Source: Prosopocoilus inquinatus (lineage: Eukaryota; Arthropoda; Insecta; Coleoptera; Lucanidae). From it: a DNA stretch of 64,000 nucleotides. The notes under the pieces were generated by a model that was not told the origin of the DNA, did not search any database, and saw only the letters and a program-made list of their open reading frames with translations. Every line of letters begins with the position of its first letter. The stretch's first letter is position 1. Of the stretch, positions 2,309 through 54,866 are shown one piece after another. The translations under genes were made by a program, and so were the position numbers. The stretch is from the NCBI GenBank assembly GCA_036172665.1, contig CM069870.1, positions 27,564,001-27,628,000 of the forward strand. The letters run 5' to 3'.

Positions 2309-2738
2309 TACACAGTTTCTTCGTGTTCTCTTTTGTCTTGTTGCTATGGCAACCAACTTTGGTTTTTTAAATGGTACCTGTAATAACTTTTACTGAATTT
2401 CAAATGAGCGTATTTTTTTCGTTTCAGTAATATAATTTTGTTGAAGAAAATAAAAATAAATCAGCGAGAAAAAATATTCAGTACGTTCCAATCATCAGTT
2501 TTAACCAAGAATTCTGTGTAAATATCACAAACAAAAGTAACACTTAAATCTTGTTTGTCATGTATAACTTCAATTGATAAATTTCCACAGCATGCTTGAC
2601 CAAAAATGATAATCGTGTTTTATTACTAAATCAATTTTTTCTCCCTTATTTTATTGTATTGCCCATAATGACTAAATTGTATCACTGAATGGAGAAAAAT
2701 ATCCTTGTTCCAAACTTTTTAAAACTAAGTATAGGTAC

Positions 2739-3229
2739 AGATAAAATAGCGACATCTTCATCTTACTATCGCTTTTTGACCAGACATTGCAGTAGGATAG
2801 ACAAATTGAAGCGGGATTTGCTCCTAATAAGTCCCCCATGCAAGGCGGCCATGCATGTACAGAAGCTGCTCGAGGTTTTCACTGCAATCAAAAACGATTT
2901 GTACAAAATTTTTCTAAAAACTTTCATTATACTTTGACAGCAAGCATGGCCGCCTTGCATGGGGGACTTATTAGGAGCAAATCCCGCTTCAATTTGTCTA
3001 TCTACTGCAATGTCAGGTCAAAAAGCGATAGTAAGATGCCGCTATTTTATGTGTTCATCACTCTTACATTGCAATTGCGAATAAATTGGACAAGTCGTTT
3101 TTGTTTGCAGTGGGAATGTCGAGCTACGTCTCTGCTGAAGAAGCCCCAAGCAGGGCTGAAACAGCTGTACAGGCTGCTCGAGGTTTTCACTGCAATCAAA
3201 AACGATTTGCACAAAATTTTTCTAATAAA
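2739..3229 (+). mobile_element. Hammerhead-ribozyme retroelement (retrozyme-like), insertion 1
   Basis: An insertion flanked by the 9-bp direct repeat TATAGGTAC (2730-2738 and 3230-3238) and absent from the related element at 36169-37316. The first ~115 bp (2739-2852) are an inverted copy of 2943-3055. Sense sequence then runs from about 2855 to the 3' end ACAAAATTTTTCTAA. The sense part begins within a few bases of the predicted cleavage site of the monomer, passes through one full monomer, and includes a hammerhead at 3107-3193. No protein is encoded, so mobilisation would need enzymes supplied in trans. The short target duplications fit a target-primed retrotransposition mechanism. Confidence 0.75.
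3107..3193 (+). ncRNA. Type I hammerhead ribozyme, damaged in stem I
   Basis: Core CUGAAGA at 3135-3141, a stem II hairpin AGCCC/GGGCU, then GAAA, the loopless palindrome ACAGCUGU as stem III, and A as the cleavage-site residue. The outer stem I pairs GCAGUG with CACUGC, and UCGAGC with GCUCGA. Compared with other copies, about three bases are lost just after the cleavage site, which removes part of the inner stem I (CUCUG/CAGAG). Activity is therefore doubtful. Confidence 0.7.
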
Positions 3230-3418
3230 TATAGGTACGATTAAAAAATAACAAAATTGGTTGTCATAGCAACAGAACAAAAGAAAATAAAAAGAAACTG
3301 AAAAGGTTACAACATGCGTGGCAATAAACCAAACAACCTTTATATTACACATTTTTTCATAACTTATCAAACAAAAAAGTTACAGTCATTATTCGAAACT
3401 TTTATTCCACACTGTATA

Positions 3419-4898: not shown

Positions 4899-5075
4899 TG
4901 TAGCAAGTCTACTCAGATTGCAGTGGGGCCCTCAAGCATCCTCTGTATGGCGCTATTTCGGCTCTAAATGGGGCCTCATCAGCAGAAGACTAGTTCGAGC
5001 AACTCCACCGCAATCTGAACGACTTGCCCGATGTTCGTTTGAGGGCCCCACTGCAATCTGAGCAGATTTGCTACA
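4899..5075 (-). repeat. 37-bp inverted repeat enclosing a hammerhead
   Basis: 4899-4935 and 5039-5075 are inverted copies with about 35 of 37 positions matching. Read on the minus strand, the 5' arm is an inverted copy of the sequence that ends the ribozyme unit. This repeats the fold-back plan of the other ribozyme family in this window. No clear target duplication was found. Confidence 0.7.
4916..5015 (-). ncRNA. Type I hammerhead ribozyme with fully canonical core
   Basis: Read on the minus strand, all conserved core positions are present: CUGAUGA (plus-strand 4982-4976), a stem II hairpin with GGC/GCC next to the core, GAAA (4959-4956), stem III AUAGC/GCCAU with no loop and one A-C mismatch, and A at the cleavage position. 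Cleavage would fall between 4946 and 4945. Stem I is long: CUUCUG pairs with CAGAGG, CUCGA with UUGAG across an internal loop, and the outer 11 bp pair GAUUGCGGUGG with CCACUGCAAUC. The internal loop in stem I and the stem II loop are where the tertiary contact of natural hammerheads would form. Self-cleavage is predicted, not shown. Confidence 0.85.
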
Positions 5076-8585: not shown

Positions 8586-8904
8586 GATTCTGTGAATCCG
8601 GGACACTTGCGCCGCGCACATTTGCGCCACCAACACATTTGCGCCCTTCCAAGAAAAGGTGTTCAATAACCGCACAGGTAAAGATTTAAAGTTGAACATT
8701 TGCGCCTCCGTTCTGTGAAATTATTTATTTCTTTCATAGATGAAAATTTACTTGTAAACTTCTTATTTCGTGAGGAAATTTATCTGAAACCTTATTTCTT
8801 ACACATCAAAAATAATCATATGTATCAATTGTGTGGCACTTTGCTATTGTTATTATTACGCTCCCAAGTTTTGTCCTCACTTTTGATCCACTGTAAACCA
8901 AAAT

Positions 8905-9075
8905 GACTTGTCCAGGTATATTCGCAATTGCGATGTAATAGTAATGAATAGTTTAAACAGCAACATCCTACGATCGCTTTTTGACCTAGCATTGCATTGG
9001 GATGACAAATTGAAGCCAGTGGGCTGCATAATAAGTCATCCCATACAAGGCGGCCATGCTTGCTGTCAAATCATA
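8905..9075 (-). mobile_element. Old remnant of the hammerhead retroelement
   Basis: Read on the minus strand, this matches the ribozyme-element monomer with many substitutions (AAGCATGGCCGCCTTG, CAAAAAGCGATCG, CGCAATTGCGAATA). The ribozyme core itself is lost. A related remnant at about 48640-48790 lies at the same place in family B copy 2, so this insertion predates the spread of family B. Confidence 0.7.
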
Positions 9076-9260
9076 AGTTTTAAACTAATTTTTGCAAATA
9101 ATTTTTTTTCTTCAAAAATTTATTTATATTTATTAGCATATAAAATAGCGACATCTTACTATCGCTTTTTGACCTAACATTGCAGTAGGATAGACAAATT
9201 GAAGCGGGATTTGCTCCTAATGAGTCCCCCATGCAAATTTTGTGCAAATCGTTTTTGATT

Positions 9261-9349
9261 GCAGTGAGAACCTCGAGCAGCCTCTGGACAGCTGTTTCAG
9301 CCCTGCTTGGGGCTTCTTCAGCAGAAACGTAGCTCGACATTCCCACTGC
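9261..9349 (-). ncRNA. Type I hammerhead ribozyme (inverted part of array)
   Basis: The reverse complement reads GCAGUG...UCGAGC, CUGAAGA, AGCCC/GGGCU, GAAA, stem III ACAGCUGU, cleavage triplet GUC, then CAGAG...GCUCGA...CACUGC. All conserved core residues are present (CUGANGA, GAAA, A-U closing pair, C at the cut). Confidence 0.8.
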
Positions 9350-9462
9350 AGACCAAAAACGACAATGTTAGGTCAAAAAGCGATAGTAAGATGTCGCTAT
9401 TTTATATGTTCATCACTCTTACATCGCAATTGCGAATAAATTGGGCAAGTCGTTTTTGGTCT

Positions 9463-9551
9463 GCAGTGGGAATGTCGAGCTACGTTTCTGCTGAAGAAGC
9501 CCCAAGCAGGGCTGAAACAGCTGTCCAGAGGCTGCTCGAGGTTCTCACTGC
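9463..9551 (+). ncRNA. Type I hammerhead ribozyme, array unit 1
   Basis: CUGAAGA at 9491-9497, stem II AGCCC (9498-9502) with GGGCU (9509-9513), GAAA at 9514-9517, and the palindrome ACAGCUGU as stem III. C is at the cut (9525). Stem I: UUCUG/CAGAG, UCGAGC/GCUCGA and GCAGUG/CACUGC, separated by internal loops. A stem III with no loop is usually inefficient alone and works best as a dimer, which fits a tandem array. Position 7 of the core is A, which the family tolerates. Confidence 0.82.
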
Positions 9552-9774
9552 AATCAAAAACGATTTGCACAAAATTTTTCTAAAATCTTTCATTATGCTT
9601 TGACAGCAAGCATGGCCGCCTTGCATGGGGGACTCATTAGGAGCAAATCCCGCTTCAGTTTGTCTATCCTACTGCAATGTTAGGTCAAAAAGCGATAGTA
9701 AGATGTCGCTATTTTATATGTTCATCACTCTTACATCGCAATTGCGAATAAATTGGGCAAGTCGTTTTTGGTCT

Positions 9775-9863
9775 GCAGTGGGAATGTCGAGCTACGTTTC
9801 TGCTGAAGAAGCCCCAAGCAGGGCTGAAACAGCTGTCCAGAGGCTGCTCGAGGTTCTCACTGC
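9775..9863 (+). ncRNA. Type I hammerhead ribozyme, array unit 2
   Basis: An exact-spacing repeat of unit 1 (312 bp downstream), with the same core (CUGAAGA at 9803-9809), GUC cut site and long stem I. Confidence 0.82.
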
Positions 9864-10226
9864 AATCAAAAACGATTTGCACAAAATTTTTCTAATAATA
9901 TATTTATTAGGTTTATAATTTGAAAGGCATTGCTAATAATTAATATAATTTTTTAAAAGTAAATACCTTTCCAACTTTCAATAAATTCTAAGAAAGAATT
10001 ATGCATCTTCTTATTAATAAATAGCACGTTGAATAAAATTTACTAAAACACAAAAATTTGAGAAATATAATTTACCAAGTGATCGGAAATTTCGAAATAT
10101 ATTATTAATGCTGAACCAGCGGCGCAAATGTAAAATTGCTAATGACATTACCTGACCGTTCCCCGTAAATTTAACCCGAGCAGCGCAAATGTATCGGTGG
10201 CGCAAATGTTCCGACACCGATTCTGT

Positions 10227-24681: not shown

Positions 24682-25165
24682 AATTTTTAATATTTTATTT
24701 ACCTTCCTTCCTTCCTTCCGTTTTTGAAAGAATTAATCAAACAATATTTGTTCTAAAAAAAAACTGTTATTATACAGGCTGGAGCTAGGAGAAACGGAAC
24801 AAACGGCGCGAGTGTATTTTACACACGAAAACAAATTATAATCTGACTTAAAATAATAATTAGATTAAATCTATCTATCTATTAAATAAATTTTAATCTA
24901 AGTGGTAAGAAAATATATTTACCTTGTTTTTTTGGTATTTTTTAGTATCTATCGTTTATGCTTGTCATGGTTTTCAGTAAACGATTAAAAATACTATACA
25001 TTTACTCATCTTCCGAATATGTAAAAATAGTATTTTTTTATGGTTTTTATATTGGAAATGTTACAGTTGCGGTTAAAGAGTGTCGTCATCGGTTTCGCCT
25101 CTACAGAATTCAGAATAAAAACGTATTTACGTATTTATCAAAATAGTTGAAAGTCAGTTTCGATT

Positions 25166-25249
25166 GCAGTGGACATTCTGAGCAAATCCTGGACAGCTGT
25201 TTCGGCCCTTTTTGGGACCTTCTCAACAATAGAGTAGCTCGTATGACAT
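25166..25249 (-). ncRNA. Eroded hammerhead ribozyme (third family), copy 1
   Basis: Reverse complement: CGAGCUAC, a degraded core UUGAGAA in place of CUGANGA, a good stem II (GGUCC/GGGCC), CGAAA, stem III ACAGCUGU, cut triplet GUC, then CAGGAUUUGCUC. The GAAA and stem III side is intact, but the CUGANGA side has lost C3 and G8, so it is likely inactive. 25255-25310 is shared with the copy at 29241, and 25330-25460 is shared with 45990-46145. The ribozyme thus belongs to a longer repeat. Confidence 0.6.
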
Positions 25250-29103: not shown

Positions 29104-29240
29104 TATAAGTAATAAGCAAAATTAATTTCCTTTTTTCAAGAACTTATTCACGCATTTCACAGACATTGGCTTCCCTATAATACTTTTTATAATTTTCTTG
29201 AAATGTAAATGTACATAAATTAATTGCAGTCAGTTTCGTT

Positions 29241-29322
29241 TACTGTGCATTTCCCGAGCATCTCCTGGACAGCTGATACGGCCCTATTTGAAGCCTCCTC
29301 TGCAAGGGAGTAACTCAATCAT
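29241..29322 (-). ncRNA. Eroded hammerhead ribozyme (third family), copy 2
   Basis: Reverse complement: GAGUUACUCCCUUG, core CAGAGGA (one change from CUGANGA), stem II GGC/GCC, GUAU in place of GAAA, stem III and cut site CAGCUGUC, then CAGGAG...GCUC. The loss of GAAA should abolish cleavage. It shares ATTTTAATTCARAATGCTTAT with the copy at 25166. Confidence 0.55.
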
Positions 29323-43629: not shown

Positions 43630-43674
43630 TATTTTTACAGCTTTAAAAAATTTTGTTGCAAATCGTTTTTGATT

Positions 43675-43763
43675 GCAGTGAAAACCTCGAGCAGCCTCTG
43701 TACAGCTGTTTCAGCCCTGCTTGGGACTTCGTCAGCAGAGATGTAGCTCGACATTCCCACTGC
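43675..43763 (-). ncRNA. Type I hammerhead ribozyme, CUGACGA core
   Basis: Reverse complement: GCAGUG, UCGAGC, CUCUG, then CUGACGA, stem II AGUCCC/GGGCU, GAAA, stem III ACAGCUGU, A at the cut, then CAGAG (perfect 5-bp inner stem I), GCUCGA and CACUGC. All conserved core positions are present. Cleavage would fall between 43701 and 43700. Confidence 0.82.
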
Positions 43764-44012
43764 AAACAAAAACGAGTTGTGCAATTTATTCACAATTGCG
43801 ATGTAAGAATGATGAACAGATAAAACAGCGACATCTGCTTTGACAGCAAGCATGGCCGCCCTGCATGGGGGACTTATTAGGAGCAAATCCGCTTCAATTT
43901 GTCTATCCTACTGCAATGTTAGGTCAAGAAGCGATCGTAAGATGTCGCTGTTTTATCTGTTCATCATTCTTACATCGCAATTGCGAATAAATTGGACAAG
44001 TCGTTTTTGTTT

Positions 44013-44101
44013 GCAGTGGGAATGTCGAGCTACGTCTCTACTGAAGAATCCCCAAGCAGGGCTGAAACAGCTGTACAGAGGCTGCTCGAGGTTTTCACTG
44101 C
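44013..44101 (+). ncRNA. Type I hammerhead ribozyme, partly mismatched
   Basis: CUGAAGA at 44041-44047, GAAA, stem III ACAGCUGU, A at the cut. The base before the core breaks the first stem I pair (CUCUA against CAGAG), and stem II has one mismatch (AUCCC/GGGCU). It is inverted relative to the element's sense 3' end. Confidence 0.7.
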
Positions 44102-44595
44102 AATCAAAAACGATTTGCACAAAATTTTTCCAAAAACTTTCATTATGCTTTGATAGTAAGCATGGCCGCCTTGCATGGGGGACTTATTAGGAGAAAATCC
44201 CGCTTCAATTTGTCTATCCTACTGCAATGTCAGGTCAAGAAGCGATCGTAAGATGTCGCTGTTTTATCTGTTATTTTTACAGCCTTAAATATTGTCTGTT
44301 TTGTCTACCACTTCTACCCCAATCACTTGGTTTACTTTATTCTGCAGTGTTAGCTATTTCGATTCATATACATACATACCGGGTGCTTACTTTGATTCCA
44401 CCATAGAAATTTGAATACATTTTTTTTAATTGTAAATTCCCGCGTCTCTATTGAAATTATTGTTAAAAAAAGTATCACACTGAATGCAGAGTTGTATTTT
44501 TCAGCCAACACTAAATTACCTGTTTGATTAGCTTCTTGAGGCTTTATTAAGATCAAAAACTTTCAGACTCCTGTCCGTAATTTAATAAGTTAAGA

Positions 44596-46995: not shown

Positions 46996-48639
46996 GAGTT
47001 GAATTGAATTGAATATAATGTACTTTACTGCTTTACATGATTTCAGACTCGAATGGGATATTTCAGACACAATGTTAGAGATTTTGGGAGACATTGAGCT
47101 TGGGGTAAACTCTAATGCGGGACAAAGTTCCTCTTGAGGGACGCTTGGTTACTTATACTAGGGATGACGACGGGTAACCGATACCCGATAATTACCCGTA
47201 ACCCGATGTTCGGAAAGTGTCCAACAACCGAGTATCCTTTACTACATTTTGCTTGATGTGACTGACCTTCATTAACATTTTGGTCGAAGGAGCATCAATT
47301 ACTTCAGATAATCCTATATTGGTTTTTTAAATTGTTAGTCGGTACTTATCGGATATCCAAGTGGGTATCGGGTACTTATCGGGTAACTACCCGGGTATCA
47401 ATAACACTTGCGCCGCGCACATTTGTGCCGCCAATACATTTGCACCCTTCCAAGAAAAGGTGCTCAATAACCGCACAGGTAAAGATTTAAAGTTGAACAT
47501 TTGCGCCTCCTATCTGGGGAATTATTTATTTCTTAGATGAAAACTTATTTCTTGCTGATCAAAACTAATCATATGTATCAATTATGTTGCACTTTGCTGT
47601 GATATCACTTACTGGTTGTTATTATTAGGTTCCCAAGTTTTGTCCTCACTTTTTATCCACGCACAAGTTTAGTTTTGTGGATTATTTATATTTATTACCT
47701 ATTTTAATCTTAATAATTTTTAACACAAGATTACTTTTCTAGTTTAACTATGATTTATATGTATTCTTCTGTTGATTGTACTTCCTTAAATAATAATTAT
47801 AGGAAAGAAGCAAACAACTCTGCAACTTCCAGTTTTTTAATTTATAAATGAAACAATTCAAATCGAGAAAGAAGATAGTTTCAGTTGCTTTTTTATGTAA
47901 TTTCCGTTTAATCCCACAAATATTACTGAATGTTCGGGCAACTTAAAATCAAATCACTTCAGCCTAAGTACAACTGGTACTTCATCTGTGCACAATATGA
48001 CACTATTATTTTATTTTTTTCTTGCGTTTTTTGGTCGAAACATTTTTATCAACTCTTCTTTAATTATGAACCCCTCTGTTGAAAAAATGCTCCATATTTT
48101 TTCACTTTTCTTAAATTTGTGATAATTATTCAAATTTCTTTGTTTATTTAAAATTGTTAGAATTCAATGCCTGTTGTAATTTTTTTATTTGATTCTTTGG
48201 AAAAATGATTTTGACACAAATACTATGCTCCTCGACTGCTGGGAAAGCCATATATTGGAAAAAAATTCCGGATACTTTCTAGACGGTCTATATATTTATT
48301 ATATTTCATATTTACTTTTATTTATGTCTACTTCTATTTTGGGGAAATAAACATTATTATTGTATTCTAATAGCTAAAAGAGCGAGACACTTAGAAAATT
48401 TGTAAGCGTTTTTCCAGGCCATCTTTCTTTTTTAAACTCAATTATTATATTATGAACGGTTCATGTAAATATTGTTTTTCTACAATTGGTCAAAAAATGG
48501 ATGTTTACGAATTAATTTTAGTGCGCAAAACACGCGTTTTTTCACCGTTCAAATGACAGAAAATCTTTTTTTCGAATTTTTTTTTTAACGGTAAAAAAAG
48601 CAACGCGTGTTTTGCCACGGAAATTAGTGTAAACACCTA

Positions 48640-48790
48640 TCCTACGATCGCTTGTTGCCTGACATTGCCAAATTGAAGCCAGTTGGCTACATAATAAGTC
48701 ATCCCATATAAGGCGACTACGCTCGCTATTAGAGCAATCAGAGGTTTGTTTTACAAAAGTTTGTTGCAAATAGTTTTTTTTTTTCAAAAA
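48640..48790 (-). mobile_element. Eroded remnant of the hammerhead retroelement
   Basis: CCTACGATCGCTTGTTGCCT, TTGAAGCCAGTTGGCT and ATAATAAGTCATCCCATA match 8960-9050 in family B copy 1. It was therefore already inside the ancestor of both copies. The ribozyme core is gone. Confidence 0.65.
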
Positions 48791-49114
48791 TTTATGGTTA
48801 TATTTATTACCTAGGTTTACAATTGAAAATCATTGCTATTAATTAAAATATGTTTTTTAAAGTAAATACCATTCGAGCTTTCAATAAATTCCAAATACAA
48901 ATAAGCAATTGCGTATTATACATACAGTGAGAATCTTGTAACGCTGCACATAGACGAAAATTACGTGACCAGATAATATATTTCTGAGTTATATAAAATT
49001 GCACATAGGGGTTTCAATATTACGTTGCTAATGTTACTACTCAATGTTCAATGCTGAATCATTTAAAAACTGCACATAGTAAGTATTATGGAAGGTTTAT
49101 TACTTTGCATGTGT

Positions 49115-49406: not shown

Positions 49407-49676
49407 AAGATTTACAAGAACTAAGCGCATCAGCGAAGAAGAGAAACACCGCATAGAAAACTATCGTTCAGGACTACAGATAAGGCTCTAGAACAGTTCT
49501 AGAATTTGTAGGCTGCTATCTGTGTTAAGGTAGTACACATTTATAAAACACATTCATACTTTTATACATTTATTTGCAAAAGAAAATATTTTGACAAATA
49601 TTTTTACACATTAACACAATTTCTTTGTAACTAGGTTACAATAATTCAATTCATAGTTTTCTGAATTTGAAAAGTC

Positions 49677-52600
49677 ATGCAAGACGTCACATCTACTGAA
49701 AAACTTGTGCGTAAACGAGGTACTATTAAATACAAACTAACAAATTTTATAAAATATTTACGCACAGTTCAAGATGCATATGCAAGTGATCAAGTTTTAG
49801 CAGAAAAAACAATCATTGAATTGCAAGATCGTAGTAGCAAGTTTGCATCGTTGTTTGAGGAATTTGATGAAACTCAGAGTAAAATAGAATATATTTGCGA
49901 TGAAGATGACTTAGAAAGGCAATATTTAGAGAGAGAAGATTTCACTGAAAAGCATTCATCCGCAATCACAGACGCAAAATTTATTTTAAAGCAAGTCTGC
50001 ACACCTGTCATCCAAATTCAAAGCGACAGTATCACTGGCATATCAGATTCCTCAAAACAAAACGGTATTTCTCACAACATTAAACTTCCAACAATTAAAC
50101 TTGCAAAATTTAACGGTGCATATGATAATTGGTTGGAATTCAAAGATACTTTTGAGTCACTAATTAATTCAAACAAATCAATTGACAATGTTCAGAAGTA
50201 TCATTATTTACGTGCTTCACTAGAAGGTGACGCACTAAAGGTTATACAGTCTCTAGAATTCTCATCCGAAAATTACATAATCGCATGGGAACTACTTTGC
50301 AATAGGTATAATAACATCAGATTGTTAATTAATAATCACATCAAATCTCTGTTTGAATTAAATTCACTTACAAAGGAGTCCTCAAGAGGAATAAGAGACT
50401 TGATAGATACCATTTTTAAACATTTAAGAGCTCTTCAAACACTAGAACAACCAACAGAACATTGGGACACTTTGTTGATATTTTTAATTACGTCAAAATT
50501 AGACAAATTTACTGTTCGGGAATGGGAAAAAGTTAAAACAGGCAATAATTTCCCAACACTTTCTGAATTCAAGAGTTTTTTGAATTCAAGAGCAGATTTT
50601 CTAGAAACACTTGAAATCAATCATAATAAAATTGCCAAAGAACATAAACAGTTACATAATAATATCAAACAAGTTTCGTTAATATCCTCAAATGTGAAAT
50701 GTCCTGTATGTAATGGGGCACATTTAATTTATTATTGTGAAAAATTCTTAAAATTAAATTTGTCAGATAAATTAAAAACAGTAAAGCAGCTGAATCTTTG
50801 TAATAACTGTTTACGTTCAGGCCACACAACTAAAAACTGCAGATCTGGATTTTGTAAAAAGTGCAAAGCTAAACATAACACTTTACTTCATCCAGAATTA
50901 TTATATACACGTGAACCAATTACATCAAAAACAATTCATCCAAATGCATCAACAACAATTTCGCCACAAGTTAGTTTCACAAGTCATTATCCTAATCAAC
51001 ATGTTCTGCTTTCCACTGTATCAATTTTAGTTCCAGATGTTTTTGGCAACATTCATACTGCAAAAGCTTTACTTGACTGTGGTTTTCAGTCAAATTTTCT
51101 TACTTTAAAATTTTGCAAAAAGTTAGGATTAGAAGAACATTCAACAAACATGACCATTGGAGGAATCAATGGCGTTTCATCAGTCATTAAAAAAAAATGC
51201 AACATTGTGATATATTCACTCAATTATGAATTTTCTACTAATCTTTGTTGTTTTATTTTGCCCACAATTACAGGTAATTTGCCTTCATTCACTATCAACA
51301 CCAGCTCATGGAATATTCCAGCCAACATTCAATTGGCAGATCCTCAATTCACCGAGCCTAGTGAAATAGATGTACTTATTGGTGCAGGTATTTTTTGGAA
51401 TATTCTTCATCATCAAAGAATTCAGTTGGGTAAGAATATGCCAGTTCTTCAAAACACAGAATTCGGTTGGATTATATCAGGTACCATCTCAGAATCCATT
51501 TCAAAAATTCATTGCAATTTTTCTAAAACTCACAGCAATCTTGATTCTGAATTGCAGAAATTTTGGGAGATAGAGGAAATTAATAACGAGCATTCTATGT
51601 CTTCAGATGATGTTTATTGCGAAAAACATTTCCTAGAAACGTTTTCTAGAAATGAAGAAGGACGGTTCATTGTTCGAATACCACTAAAACATTCTGCTTC
51701 TAATTTAGGTAACTCAAAACCATTATCAATTAAACGTCAACAACAATTAGAACGTAAATTTTCATACGATTCTAATCTAAAATTTCAATATTCTCAATTC
51801 ATAAAAGAATACATAGATTTAAACCACATGTCTCAAGTAAATTTAATTCCTTCCAATACAGCATATTTTTTGCCACATCATGGTGTTTTTAGACAAGAAA
51901 GTTTGACTACTAAACTAAGAGTAGTCTTTGATGGATCAGCGAATTCTGATTCAGGTTGGTCAGTTAATGATTTACAATTTACAGGGCCACCCATTCAGAA
52001 TGAAATATTTTCTATACTCATAAAATTCAGACAACATCCTTTTGCAGTTTCGGCAGATATAGAAAAAATGTATAGGCAGGTCGTCATTCATCCTGATGAC
52101 AGACATCTTCAAAATATTGTTTGGAGATTTAGTTCAGACGATCCAATTTCCATTTACACTTTAAATACAGTTACCTACGGCACTAGATCTGCTCCGTATT
52201 TAGCCATAAGATGCTTAAAGCAGTTGGCTCATGAATATCAAACAAAATCTTCTTTCGCATCTTCAATAATAAAAAATGATTTTTATGTTGATGATCTCAT
52301 AACAGGTTTTGATTCTGAAACAGTTGCAATCAATGTATGTAAAGAAATTGCATCAATTCTAAATTCAGCATGTTTCCCATTAAGAAAATGGAATTCTAAT
52401 AGTCAGCTTTTCTTGCAAGAGTTTCAAAATGAAAATGAACCTGTGAGTGTTTTAAATTTAGGAGATAATGAGTTTTCAAAAACTTTAGGAATAAAATGGT
52501 ACAGTAAATCTGATACATTAGGTTTTCAAATCAAAAATTTTGAAAATTCTTTATCAATTAATAAACGATCAATCTTATCTGACGTAGCAAGGATTTTTGA

Positions 52601-54866
52601 TCCATTAGGTTTGTTAAGCCCATGCACTATTTTCTCAAAAATAATTATTCAAAAACTATGGTCTCTTAAATTAGATTGGAATGATCCTATTCCAGACGAT
52701 TTGAAAGCTACGTGGGTACGATTCAGAAATAATTTAACAAAATTAAATCAACTCAAATTAGATAGGCACGTCATTTGTAAAAATTCTACAGAAATCGAAT
52801 TACATGGTTTCTGTGACGCGTCACAAAACGCATACGGTGCGTGTGTATACGTTCGCAGCATCGATCAAAAAGAAAAGATTTTAATTAATCTCTTATGCGG
52901 AAAGACAAAGGTTGCTCCACTGAAATGTTTAACTATGCCAAGATTAGAATTGTGCAGTGCTTTGTTGTTAAGTCAATTAATTAACAAAGTACAAAAATCA
53001 TTCACTATCGAATGCTCATATCATCTATGGTCAGATTCTCAAATAATATTACACTGGATTAACTCTCCATCTCATTCATTACCAATTTTTGTAAGAAATC
53101 GCATTTCTAAAATTCAAGAATTAACACAGATTAGTAATTGGAAGTACATAAACACAAAAGATAATCCTGCCGATCTTACATCACGAGGAATTTCTCCTGA
53201 AAATTTACTCAAGTCTCAATTGTGGTGGAACGGCCCTTCATGGTTGTCTCTTCCAACTAATCATTGGCCATCATCCGCATTCTCAATTTCAATTAAATAT
53301 TCTAAAAATAATGTTTGCTCAGCTACTGTTGAAAATAATTTTCAGATATTCGAAAGGTTTTCTAGTTTGAATAGGTTGAAAAGAACAATGGCATACATTT
53401 TACGATTCATCTTAAACATTAAGAAACAAAAATCTAAACGGCCGTACGGATATTTGACTATTGCAGAATTAGATCTCAGTATGAAACAATTAATAAAATT
53501 GTCACAACAAGACAGTTTTCCTCAAGAAATTAATTTATTACTAAATAATAAAAATTTAAAGCCAAAACACAATTTATTATCCCTTGCTCCGTTCATTGAT
53601 ACTGAAGGTTTATTAAGAGTCGGTGGTCGATTAAAAAACTCTTATTTAGATTTTGCTCAGAAACATCCTTTGATTTTATCGGGAAAACATCGTTTAGCAA
53701 AACTAATTTTTGAAAATACGCATATAACATTACTTCATGCAGGTCCACAATTGTTATTATTTACAGTAAGACAGCATTTTTGGGTTACATCTGGAATGAG
53801 TGTGGCTAAGTCAGTAGTGCGAGGTTGCATCAGATGTTTTAAATCTAAACCAAAATCTTTTGATCAAATAATGGCAAATTTGCCAAAAGAAAGAGTTACA
53901 GTTAATAATCCATTTTATATCACGGGAATAGATTATGCAGGGCCTTTTAATATAAAAGATCGCAAAGGTCGAGGTTCAAAGACTATAAAGGGCTACATTT
54001 GTCTTTTCATCTGCTTTTCTACTAAAGCTATGCATCTTGAACTTGTGACAGATTTATCAAGCGAAACATTCCTTGCTGCTTTGAGAAGATTTGCATCACG
54101 AAGAGGCAAACCAGCTCATTTATATTCAGATAATGCAACAAATTTTATCGGAGCAGCTAAGAAACTATCTGCCTTGCATGAATTTTTCTCAAACTCTAAA
54201 ACAGAAATAACAAATTATTGTACAAATGAAAATATAACCTGGCATTTTATTCCCCCAAACTCACCTCATTTCGGAGGGCTTTGGGAATCAAACATAAAAA
54301 ACATAAAACATCATTTATCAAGAGTAATTAATGACACAAAATTAACATATGAAGAATTTTACACAATCTTAACACAGATAGAAGCAACTTTAAATTCTAG
54401 ACCTTTATACCCTCTGTCATCGGATGTTGATGATCTGCAGCCACTAACTCCAGCTCATTTCTTGATTGGCAAACCATTGACTGCTATTCCAGAACCGCAA
54501 TTGCTGGACACACCAACAAACAGGCTGTCGCGTTTCCAGTTACAGCAACAGTTGGTACAAAGTTTTTGGAAGCGGTGGTCACAAGAATATTTGTATCATC
54601 TGCAAGAAAGAAAGAAATGGAAGAGCAAAAATCCAGGGCTAAAGATTGGAAGTTTGGTAATAATCAAACAGGATAACTTACCTCCTTCCCAGTGGCTCCT
54701 TGGAAGAATAGTAGAGCTTCATCCCGGTGACGACAACGTAGTTCGAGTTGCTACAGTCAAGACTCATAAAGGCAATTTCAAGCGAGCAGTAGCGAAGTTG
54801 TGTCCCCTTCCAGTACCTGAAAATGGCAGTAGTGACAGTGAAATTGTGCATGTTAAAAACAGTTAA
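49677..54866 (+). CDS. BEL/Pao gag-pol polyprotein
   Basis: A single 1729-residue frame encodes all retrotransposition functions. The N-terminal third is Gag-like: the DUF1759-type motif LPTIKLAKFNGAYDNW is near residue 136 and a CCHC knuckle (CNNCLRSGHTTKNC) near 373. An aspartic protease follows near 464 (LLDCGFQSNF, with Cys where Ser or Thr is usual after the catalytic Asp). The reverse transcriptase has LRVVFDGSA and the catalytic YVDD box near 870. RNase H follows (HGFCDAS near 1042, LWSDSQ). The integrase has an H2C2 zinc finger (about 1337-1395) and a D-D-E triad near 1418 (GIDYAG), 1483 (YSDNATNF) and 1536 (GGLWES). The C-terminal domain (about 1615-1718) resembles DUF5641. No stop or frameshift is present. 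The Met at 49677 is the first in frame after a 300-bp leader. Confidence 0.96.
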   Translation: MQDVTSTEKLVRKRGTIKYKLTNFIKYLRTVQDAYASDQVLAEKTIIELQDRSSKFASLFEEFDETQSKIEYICDEDDLERQYLEREDFTEKHSSAITDAKFILKQVCTPVIQIQSDSITGISDSSKQNGISHNIKLPTIKLAKFNGAYDNWLEFKDTFESLINSNKSIDNVQKYHYLRASLEGDALKVIQSLEFSSENYIIAWELLCNRYNNIRLLINNHIKSLFELNSLTKESSRGIRDLIDTIFKHLRALQTLEQPTEHWDTLLIFLITSKLDKFTVREWEKVKTGNNFPTLSEFKSFLNSRADFLETLEINHNKIAKEHKQLHNNIKQVSLISSNVKCPVCNGAHLIYYCEKFLKLNLSDKLKTVKQLNLCNNCLRSGHTTKNCRSGFCKKCKAKHNTLLHPELLYTREPITSKTIHPNASTTISPQVSFTSHYPNQHVLLSTVSILVPDVFGNIHTAKALLDCGFQSNFLTLKFCKKLGLEEHSTNMTIGGINGVSSVIKKKCNIVIYSLNYEFSTNLCCFILPTITGNLPSFTINTSSWNIPANIQLADPQFTEPSEIDVLIGAGIFWNILHHQRIQLGKNMPVLQNTEFGWIISGTISESISKIHCNFSKTHSNLDSELQKFWEIEEINNEHSMSSDDVYCEKHFLETFSRNEEGRFIVRIPLKHSASNLGNSKPLSIKRQQQLERKFSYDSNLKFQYSQFIKEYIDLNHMSQVNLIPSNTAYFLPHHGVFRQESLTTKLRVVFDGSANSDSGWSVNDLQFTGPPIQNEIFSILIKFRQHPFAVSADIEKMYRQVVIHPDDRHLQNIVWRFSSDDPISIYTLNTVTYGTRSAPYLAIRCLKQLAHEYQTKSSFASSIIKNDFYVDDLITGFDSETVAINVCKEIASILNSACFPLRKWNSNSQLFLQEFQNENEPVSVLNLGDNEFSKTLGIKWYSKSDTLGFQIKNFENSLSINKRSILSDVARIFDPLGLLSPCTIFSKIIIQKLWSLKLDWNDPIPDDLKATWVRFRNNLTKLNQLKLDRHVICKNSTEIELHGFCDASQNAYGACVYVRSIDQKEKILINLLCGKTKVAPLKCLTMPRLELCSALLLSQLINKVQKSFTIECSYHLWSDSQIILHWINSPSHSLPIFVRNRISKIQELTQISNWKYINTKDNPADLTSRGISPENLLKSQLWWNGPSWLSLPTNHWPSSAFSISIKYSKNNVCSATVENNFQIFERFSSLNRLKRTMAYILRFILNIKKQKSKRPYGYLTIAELDLSMKQLIKLSQQDSFPQEINLLLNNKNLKPKHNLLSLAPFIDTEGLLRVGGRLKNSYLDFAQKHPLILSGKHRLAKLIFENTHITLLHAGPQLLLFTVRQHFWVTSGMSVAKSVVRGCIRCFKSKPKSFDQIMANLPKERVTVNNPFYITGIDYAGPFNIKDRKGRGSKTIKGYICLFICFSTKAMHLELVTDLSSETFLAALRRFASRRGKPAHLYSDNATNFIGAAKKLSALHEFFSNSKTEITNYCTNENITWHFIPPNSPHFGGLWESNIKNIKHHLSRVINDTKLTYEEFYTILTQIEATLNSRPLYPLSSDVDDLQPLTPAHFLIGKPLTAIPEPQLLDTPTNRLSRFQLQQQLVQSFWKRWSQEYLYHLQERKKWKSKNPGLKIGSLVIIKQDNLPPSQWLLGRIVELHPGDDNVVRVATVKTHKGNFKRAVAKLCPLPVPENGSSDSEIVHVKNS

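Follow-up and report, generated by a model that had tools for sequence, protein, structure and literature searches.

Head-to-head retrozymes with two fixed, unlike ends in the beetle Prosopocoilus inquinatus suggest insertion by a Penelope-type enzyme

Introduction

A stretch of 64,000 nucleotides from the lucanid beetle Prosopocoilus inquinatus (assembly GCA_036172665.1, contig CM069870.1, positions 27,564,001 to 27,628,000; hereafter, the window) contains at positions 9137-9898 an insertion that an earlier note had described as a retrozyme-like tandem array of hammerhead ribozymes (HHRs) with a 312-bp monomer. The locus raises the question of how such a non-coding element came to be inserted, and by which enzyme. 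Penelope-like elements (PLEs) have been named a strong candidate for the mobilisation of retrozymes because both have HHRs and tandem copies and because the two co-exist (Cervera and de la Pena 2020, PMC7229834), a candidacy repeated in a 2020 review (PMC7761336). Here, we examine the layout of the element, its relatives in the window and in a sample of the same contig, and the PLEs of the same genome.

Results

Layout of the element

The element contains three HHR cores and is bounded by an exact 12-bp target duplication, TATATTTATTAG, at 9125-9136 and 9899-9910, both as previously noted. The core CTGAAGAAGCCCCAAGCAGGGCTGAAA starts at 9491 and 9803 on the forward strand, at a spacing of 312 bp, and recurs in inverted orientation at 9295-9321 on the reverse strand (CTGAAGA..GAAA, with the predicted cut between 9286 and 9287); each of the three is followed by CAGCTGTC. 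The first sense HHR (9491-9525, forward strand) comprises the core, stem II, GAAA, a short palindromic helix III and GUC, with the predicted cut after 9525, and the second (9803-9837, forward strand) would be cut after 9837. The 312-bp unit between these two predicted cut sites (9526-9837, forward strand; 44% G+C) is taken as monomer 1-312, so that numbering starts at the predicted cut site (9526 = 1).

The sense units make up only one of two arms. The sense arm (9363-9898, forward strand) covers 1.7 laps of the unit, from an inner end at monomer 150 to an outer end at about 58 (E2), and is followed immediately before the right duplication by a TAA that the monomer does not account for. Its two laps are identical over 221 bp (9363-9583 versus 9675-9895, offset 312), and they are best read as a single reverse-transcription product rather than as a satellite array. 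The inverted arm (9137-9362, reverse strand) runs from an outer end at monomer ~195 (E1) to an inner end at ~237, and holds the inverted HHR and an internal deletion of ~45 bp; over 129 bp (9235-9363) its complementarity to either sense copy is complete (100%). The reading as a non-coding element of the retrozyme kind, with a 312-nt unit, a target duplication and HHRs of type I, is thus supported, whereas "tandem array" leaves out the inverted arm, which is joined head-to-head to the sense arm. Release of a 312-nt RNA from this locus, as the earlier note had suggested, is plausible.

The element contains two open reading frames (ORFs), of 104 and 111 aa, neither with a Pfam match, and no ORF with reverse transcriptase (RT) and GIY-YIG domains. 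Elsewhere in the window, positions 49671-54866 (forward strand) hold an uninterrupted 1731-aa BEL/Pao polyprotein frame with Peptidase_A17, RVT_1 and Integrase_H2C2 domains.

Hammerhead ribozymes

The core CUGAAGA, stem II (AGCCC/GGGCU), GAAA and helix III (AC[AGCU]GU) are followed by GUC^CAG, and a long stem I opens toward the flanks, which defines a type I HHR; this core and these helices are found at all three sites of the element. The same core type is present at 3135 (forward), 43709 (reverse) and 44041 (forward), with a diverged one at 4956 (reverse). A loose pattern, CTGANGA..GAAA, has 13 matches in the window (shuffles: mean 2.65, maximum 8), and a strict pattern with paired stem II has 5, compared with a mean of 0.045 and a maximum of 1 in 200 first-order Markov sequences. 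Position 7, the free position of the core, holds A, C or T wherever the core of a copy is intact, and the cut site is GUC or GUA in most of the family.

Recognition by a covariance model, which the earlier note had named as a check, did not follow: nothing in the window reaches an Rfam gathering score, and the best-scoring hammerhead family, HH9, attains 14.5 bits where 52 are required. This miss says little, because the HHR-like motifs of the Penelope elements of this genome (loci L031, L034 and L036) likewise fall below the Rfam gathering cut-off. In an alignment of 16 copies, 93.1% of the pair cells hold standard pairs, compared with 35-46% when the partners are slid by 1-3 columns, and stems I, II and III all contain pairs changed on both sides. 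The covariation score was equalled by 26 of 500 shuffles and the number of cells with a both-side change by 27 of 500, whereas the number of pairs with such a change was equalled by 271 of 500 and that of further pair types by 495 of 500; since two of five measures stay within the shuffles, covariation lends support to the ribozyme without amounting to proof.

Helix III, as read from the sequence, has only 2 bp, closed by a palindromic AGCU loop, and for a single molecule the active fold has a predicted energy of -41.3 kcal/mol compared with -53.6 for the best predicted fold, a gap of ~12 kcal/mol that is explained in part by five outer pairs given to the best fold beyond those of the active one. 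Given this short helix and the energy of the active fold above that of the best one, cleavage in a dimeric mode appears more likely than cleavage by a single motif. The same is suggested by the HHRs of axolotl retrozymes, which also have a short helix III and are described as performing better as dimers (PMC7229834). If the retrozyme HHRs cut, they would thus probably do so as dimers.

A dense family in the window and along the contig

Two other copies in the window repeat the head-to-head layout, with different inner junctions. The second copy (2726-3238; insert 2737-3228) consists of an inverted E1 arm and a sense E2 arm with an HHR at 3135-3161 and a GUA cut site, between duplications at 2726-2738 and 3226-3238 that are alike in 12 of 13 letters. 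The third (43630-44289; insert 43642-44272) has the opposite polarity, with an inverted E2 arm (HHR at 43709-43735, reverse strand), a sense E1 arm (HHR at 44041-44067, forward strand) and duplications at 43630-43647 and 44272-44289, alike in 17 of 18 letters.

More divergent pieces, all on the reverse strand, include a one-armed relative with an HHR of the form CTGATGA..GAAA (4903-5032; 70%), a relative with a decayed HHR (25134-25241; 72%) and a fragment at 29212-29304 (66%). Directly to the left of the 9137-9898 element lies an older relative (8888-9106; 79%, monomer 256-31), and a fragment of the same type is found at 48639-48778 (68%). Additional sequence flanking the older relative also occurs at 48625-48924, and the element lies within this common part. 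Aligned as a pair, 8888-9106 plus 9911-10100 and 48625-48924 are 76% identical over 316 columns; this older repeat contains the middle part of the retrozyme together with extra sequence, and the element was inserted into one of its two members.

In BLAST searches, 7 family rows were found in the window, including six further pieces beyond those listed in the earlier note, and 19 in a sample from the same contig that comprised 25 stretches, each of 10 kb (L001-L025; 250 kb in total). A rough extrapolation from the density on this one contig gives ~50,000 pieces for a 650-Mb genome. A search of the whole-genome DNA with 150 bases of the element returned no match, a search that skips very common words. 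The 26 rows correspond to 27 pieces, one row merging two neighbours, and 13 of these are two-armed; arms and junctions were delimited manually on the basis of the sequence and BLAST, and monomer positions were then computed. Excluded as one-armed, unclear or cut off were 8888, 4903, 25134, 29212 and 48639 in the window and L001 7610, L004 (two), L008, L010, L012 9834 (which runs off its locus), L013 1612, L014 and L016 in the sample. The two pieces in L004 (2384-2438 and 4094-4148) are like one-armed copies, 1710 bp apart with like flanks, probably through a local duplication.

Two fixed ends and variable inner junctions

All 13 two-armed copies from the window and the 250-kb sample are head-to-head, and the head-to-tail arrangement occurs only inside arms longer than one lap, so that at the family level, too, "tandem array" is an incomplete description. 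In every one of them, one outer end lies at monomer 189-207 (E1) and the other at 42-73 (E2), both pointing outward; no copy has two like ends, an outcome with a chance of 2^-13 under a free and even choice at each end. By contrast with these fixed outer ends, the 13 pairs of inner ends are all different. One piece outside the 13, L016 8180-8419, goes against the two-site rule, with an outer end near monomer 307. This end lies close to the ribozyme cut site, and the copy may have made use of the 3' terminus of a cleaved linear RNA.

Target duplications of 12-18 bp with at most one mismatch score 10 or more in 9 of the 13 copies; among 156 mismatched flank pairs that served as a control, 7.1% score 9 or more, with a maximum of 11. 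The remaining 4 lack a clear duplication, in a comparison where mismatched controls score up to 11.

Template of the arms

The 26 arms bear on the form of the RNA that was copied. As many as 18 of them cross the ribozyme cut site, which excludes a fully cut linear monomer as their template. No inner end lies within 2 nt of the cut site, where ~0.4 of 26 would be expected by chance, so this absence is weak evidence and indicates only that inner ends do not pile up there; one arm, in the copy at 2737, starts just 4 nt before the cut site. Four arms exceed one lap, and in two of these the laps are identical (219/219 and 61/61 positions), the other two showing 94.7% and 96.0% identity. A circle and an uncut transcript of identical units account for identical laps equally well.

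Compared with each other, the two arms of a given insertion match at 397/398 and 231/231 shared positions in two copies with few changes, and at 91/95, 105/108, 199/207 and 65/73 positions in the four other copies compared. For the copies with 4 mismatches in 95 (L017b) and 8 in 73 (L005a), the arms may derive from two RNAs or have diverged by later mutation.

A Penelope-like element of the same genome with a similar anatomy

A search of the genome for the GIY-YIG family yielded 2232 candidates, of which 150 places were scored. One element, PLE-A, carries in copy L031 a 785-aa ORF with RVT_1 and GIY-YIG domains, and of 57 scored matches, 12 span 779 or more residues of this ORF with no stop, at 98-100% identity. 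Among the matches listed, relatives of the protein are named from Allacma, Chrysoperla, Aedes, Tribolium and Molorchus. One GIY-YIG match, in a G+C-richer stretch (L033), appears similar to a host nuclease gene of the SLX1 type. An HHR motif, CTGAAGATGGTAACTTCGTTACCGAAATACGTATTCGC, lies upstream of the PLE-A ORF.

Among the scored places, neighbouring GIY-YIG matches within 10 kb are arranged as reverse-forward pairs in 47 of 48 cases and never as forward-reverse pairs (0/48), that is, head-to-head with the 3' sides outward, at distances of 322 to 4171 bp and, in one case, 9171 bp. Relative to the presumed cut, PLE-A copies end either 45-49 nt (short end) or 84-93 nt (tail end) downstream, and all 10 two-ended copies combine one short with one tail end. 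The head-to-head layout of loci L026-L031 is by choice, because they were picked for close reverse-forward pairs; the unlike ends are not. PLE-A duplications score 11-15 in all nine copies tested, compared with a control maximum of 11, with 5.6% of 72 control pairs reaching 9. Excluded from the 10 copies were L030, L042, L046 and L048 (cut by the fetched stretch), L041, L043 and L047 (one-armed), and L032, L037, L038 and L039 (only the 3' side fetched).

Other Penelope sequences were met alongside PLE-A. The second family, represented by L034, L035 and L036, has the HHR motif CTGATGAAGCAATAAATACATTGCGAAATATTGACAG in L034 and L036 and an altered form in L035, and all three fetched copies adjoin an (AT)n run, as if the family targeted AT microsatellites. 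A further Penelope-like region, L011 4061-5375, shares 62% DNA identity with PLE-A over 1336 columns.

Shared scar, separate sequences

The retrozyme and PLE-A have in common head-to-head arms, unlike ends and similar target duplications. The two start sites are ~140 nt apart in the retrozyme and ~40 nt apart in PLE-A. A hairpin, AGCGAUA..UGUCGCU, lies about a dozen nucleotides before E1 of the retrozyme, and hairpins of similar appearance occur just before both PLE-A ends; as a lead only, these may be a recognition feature for the protein. The motif TCGAGG..TTCTCACT, present in both elements and suggestive of homology by eye, was dropped (p = 0.06).

Mixed insertions were not found: ten PLE loci without a listed endonuclease partner, at least four of which are two-ended PLE copies, contain no retrozyme match at E 0.01. 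When pieces of four Penelope families were compared with the window and L001-L025, matches were obtained in L001, L003, L005 and L011, none of them touching a one-armed retrozyme copy.

Could the retrozyme simply be a non-autonomous Penelope derivative, a solo pseudo-LTR that lost the ORF and kept the HHR and start sites of some Penelope family? The HHR design is alike by eye, with a 2-bp helix III and a palindromic tetraloop (AGCU in the retrozyme, ACGU in PLE-A), the head-to-head anatomy is common to both, and a solo copy of this kind does exist: L001 2099-2331, a 233-bp head-to-head PLE-A copy ~100 bp from a retrozyme copy, follows the insertion plan of the retrozyme, with a 13-bp repeat recognised by eye. 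However, the score of the whole 312-bp unit against PLE-A falls inside the range of 10 shuffles, the region after the cut shows no significant similarity (p = 0.06), a comparison of the unit with the 3' parts of L032-L039 (eight GIY-YIG loci, three of them from another Penelope family) gave nothing at E 0.1, and the retrozyme start sites are further apart than those of PLE-A. We therefore regard descent from a Penelope element as unlikely.

Still less probable is mobilisation by a LINE reverse transcriptase with an inverted arm from ordinary twin priming. Twin priming does yield inverted 5' parts; it is not known, however, to fix the inner priming site, whereas in this family the second arm also has a fixed outer end, unlike that of the first in all 13 two-armed copies. 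Moreover, neither poly(A) nor a simple 3' tail was seen at the retrozyme ends inspected. In favour of LINEs, HHR repeats of Nematostella have 15-bp duplications that were at one time likened to those of LINEs (PMC4918200). Finally, satellite or MITE-like DNA amplification with no RNA step, the hammerhead being incidental, would suit a dispersed, dense and foldback-shaped family and is nevertheless very improbable, given that E1 and E2 come from different parts of the unit and are not inverted copies of each other, that no inner junction is common to any of the 13 copies, that duplication length varies (12-18), and that each arm is either a 5'-truncated piece of one unit or extends over more than one lap of it.

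Discussion

Comparison with known retrozymes and PLEs

The family resembles metazoan non-LTR retrozymes as described by Cervera and de la Pena (PMC7229834) in its type I HHR, its unit within 150-450 bp, the lack of noted LTR features, a G+C content under 50%, target duplications of more than 4 bp and many copies, and it shares with the axolotl retrozymes of that paper a short helix III with a palindromic loop. It differs in layout, the metazoan retrozymes being described there as tandem repeats, whereas the copies studied here are head-to-head with two fixed, unlike ends; in the main text of that paper, as distinct from its figures and supplements, the word "inverted" is absent. The head-to-tail-only layout is an observation of earlier retrozyme papers rather than a definition. 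Plant LTR retrozymes are likewise non-autonomous HHR elements and differ as described in their type III HHR, LTRs, primer-binding and polypurine sites (PBS/PPT) and 4-bp duplications (PMC4918200, PMC7761336), compared with type I and 12 bp here.

The closer parallels in insertion are with PLEs. In the rotifer Adineta vaga, copies of Pen2a are described that can bear a pseudo-LTR in inverted orientation and, at one of their ends, a tail (PMC3846280); the retrozyme offers an analogue in its unlike ends (13/13), at a different spacing. As in the Adineta PLE, the inverted copy lies at the 5' side, a tail is optional at one inverted end, and the target is duplicated, over 8-10 bp in the Adineta cases seen (PMC3846280). 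The purified PLE protein of Anolis (PAc) cuts and extends both strands in vitro and prefers AT-rich sites, and its reverse transcription starts internally on the RNA, at two sites that bound the tail (PMC11167929). The PAc HHR is dispensable for insertion in vitro, and this HHR cuts only in the presence of the protein (PMC11167929). In the retrozyme as in the Adineta (PMC3846280) and Anolis (PMC11167929) elements, the HHR lies upstream of the ends. Unlike PLEs, the retrozyme has no ORF, its end sites are ~140 nt apart compared with 30-40 nt, and no significant sequence similarity to PLE-A was found. The retrozyme thus resembles a PLE in its mode of insertion, yet is not itself one.

Proposed mode of insertion

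We consider it probable that the 9137-9898 element is a non-coding, non-LTR retrozyme and that it was inserted through two-sided reverse transcription of the Penelope type, started at two fixed sites on the RNA; the inserting enzyme is most likely of the PLE type, and a Penelope protein would be its source. The template would be a circular or multi-unit RNA of the 312-nt unit with its type I hammerhead, copied straight into a cut target site, in most cases an AT-rich one. An enzyme of the Penelope type would prime both DNA strands, starting at ~197 (E1) on one and at ~55 (E2) on the other, the two cDNAs would be joined head-to-head, and a staggered cut of 12-18 bp would give rise to the target duplication.

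More broadly, and with less confidence, we lean toward the view that animal retrozymes are satellites of PLEs, as SINEs are of LINEs, with an RT dimer gripping two fixed RNA sites, one for each target strand. Both target strands would be opened, and an uncut circular or multi-unit RNA would be copied for up to more than one lap.

Significance

In searches of the open-licence literature, no title or first part of an abstract among the papers listed describes this scar for retrozymes. The combination of head-to-head arms, one end for each fixed RNA site and a staggered duplication provides a direct genomic test that can be applied to any animal genome. The 18 of 26 arms that cannot stem from a fully cut linear monomer bear on whether a putative circular RNA is the true intermediate. 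The scar fits the in vitro biochemistry of the Anolis PLE protein (PMC11167929) and bears on the question of which enzyme spreads animal retrozymes. If retrozymes are indeed satellites of PLEs, a head-to-head scar with unlike ends would be a diagnostic fossil of PLE-type insertion.
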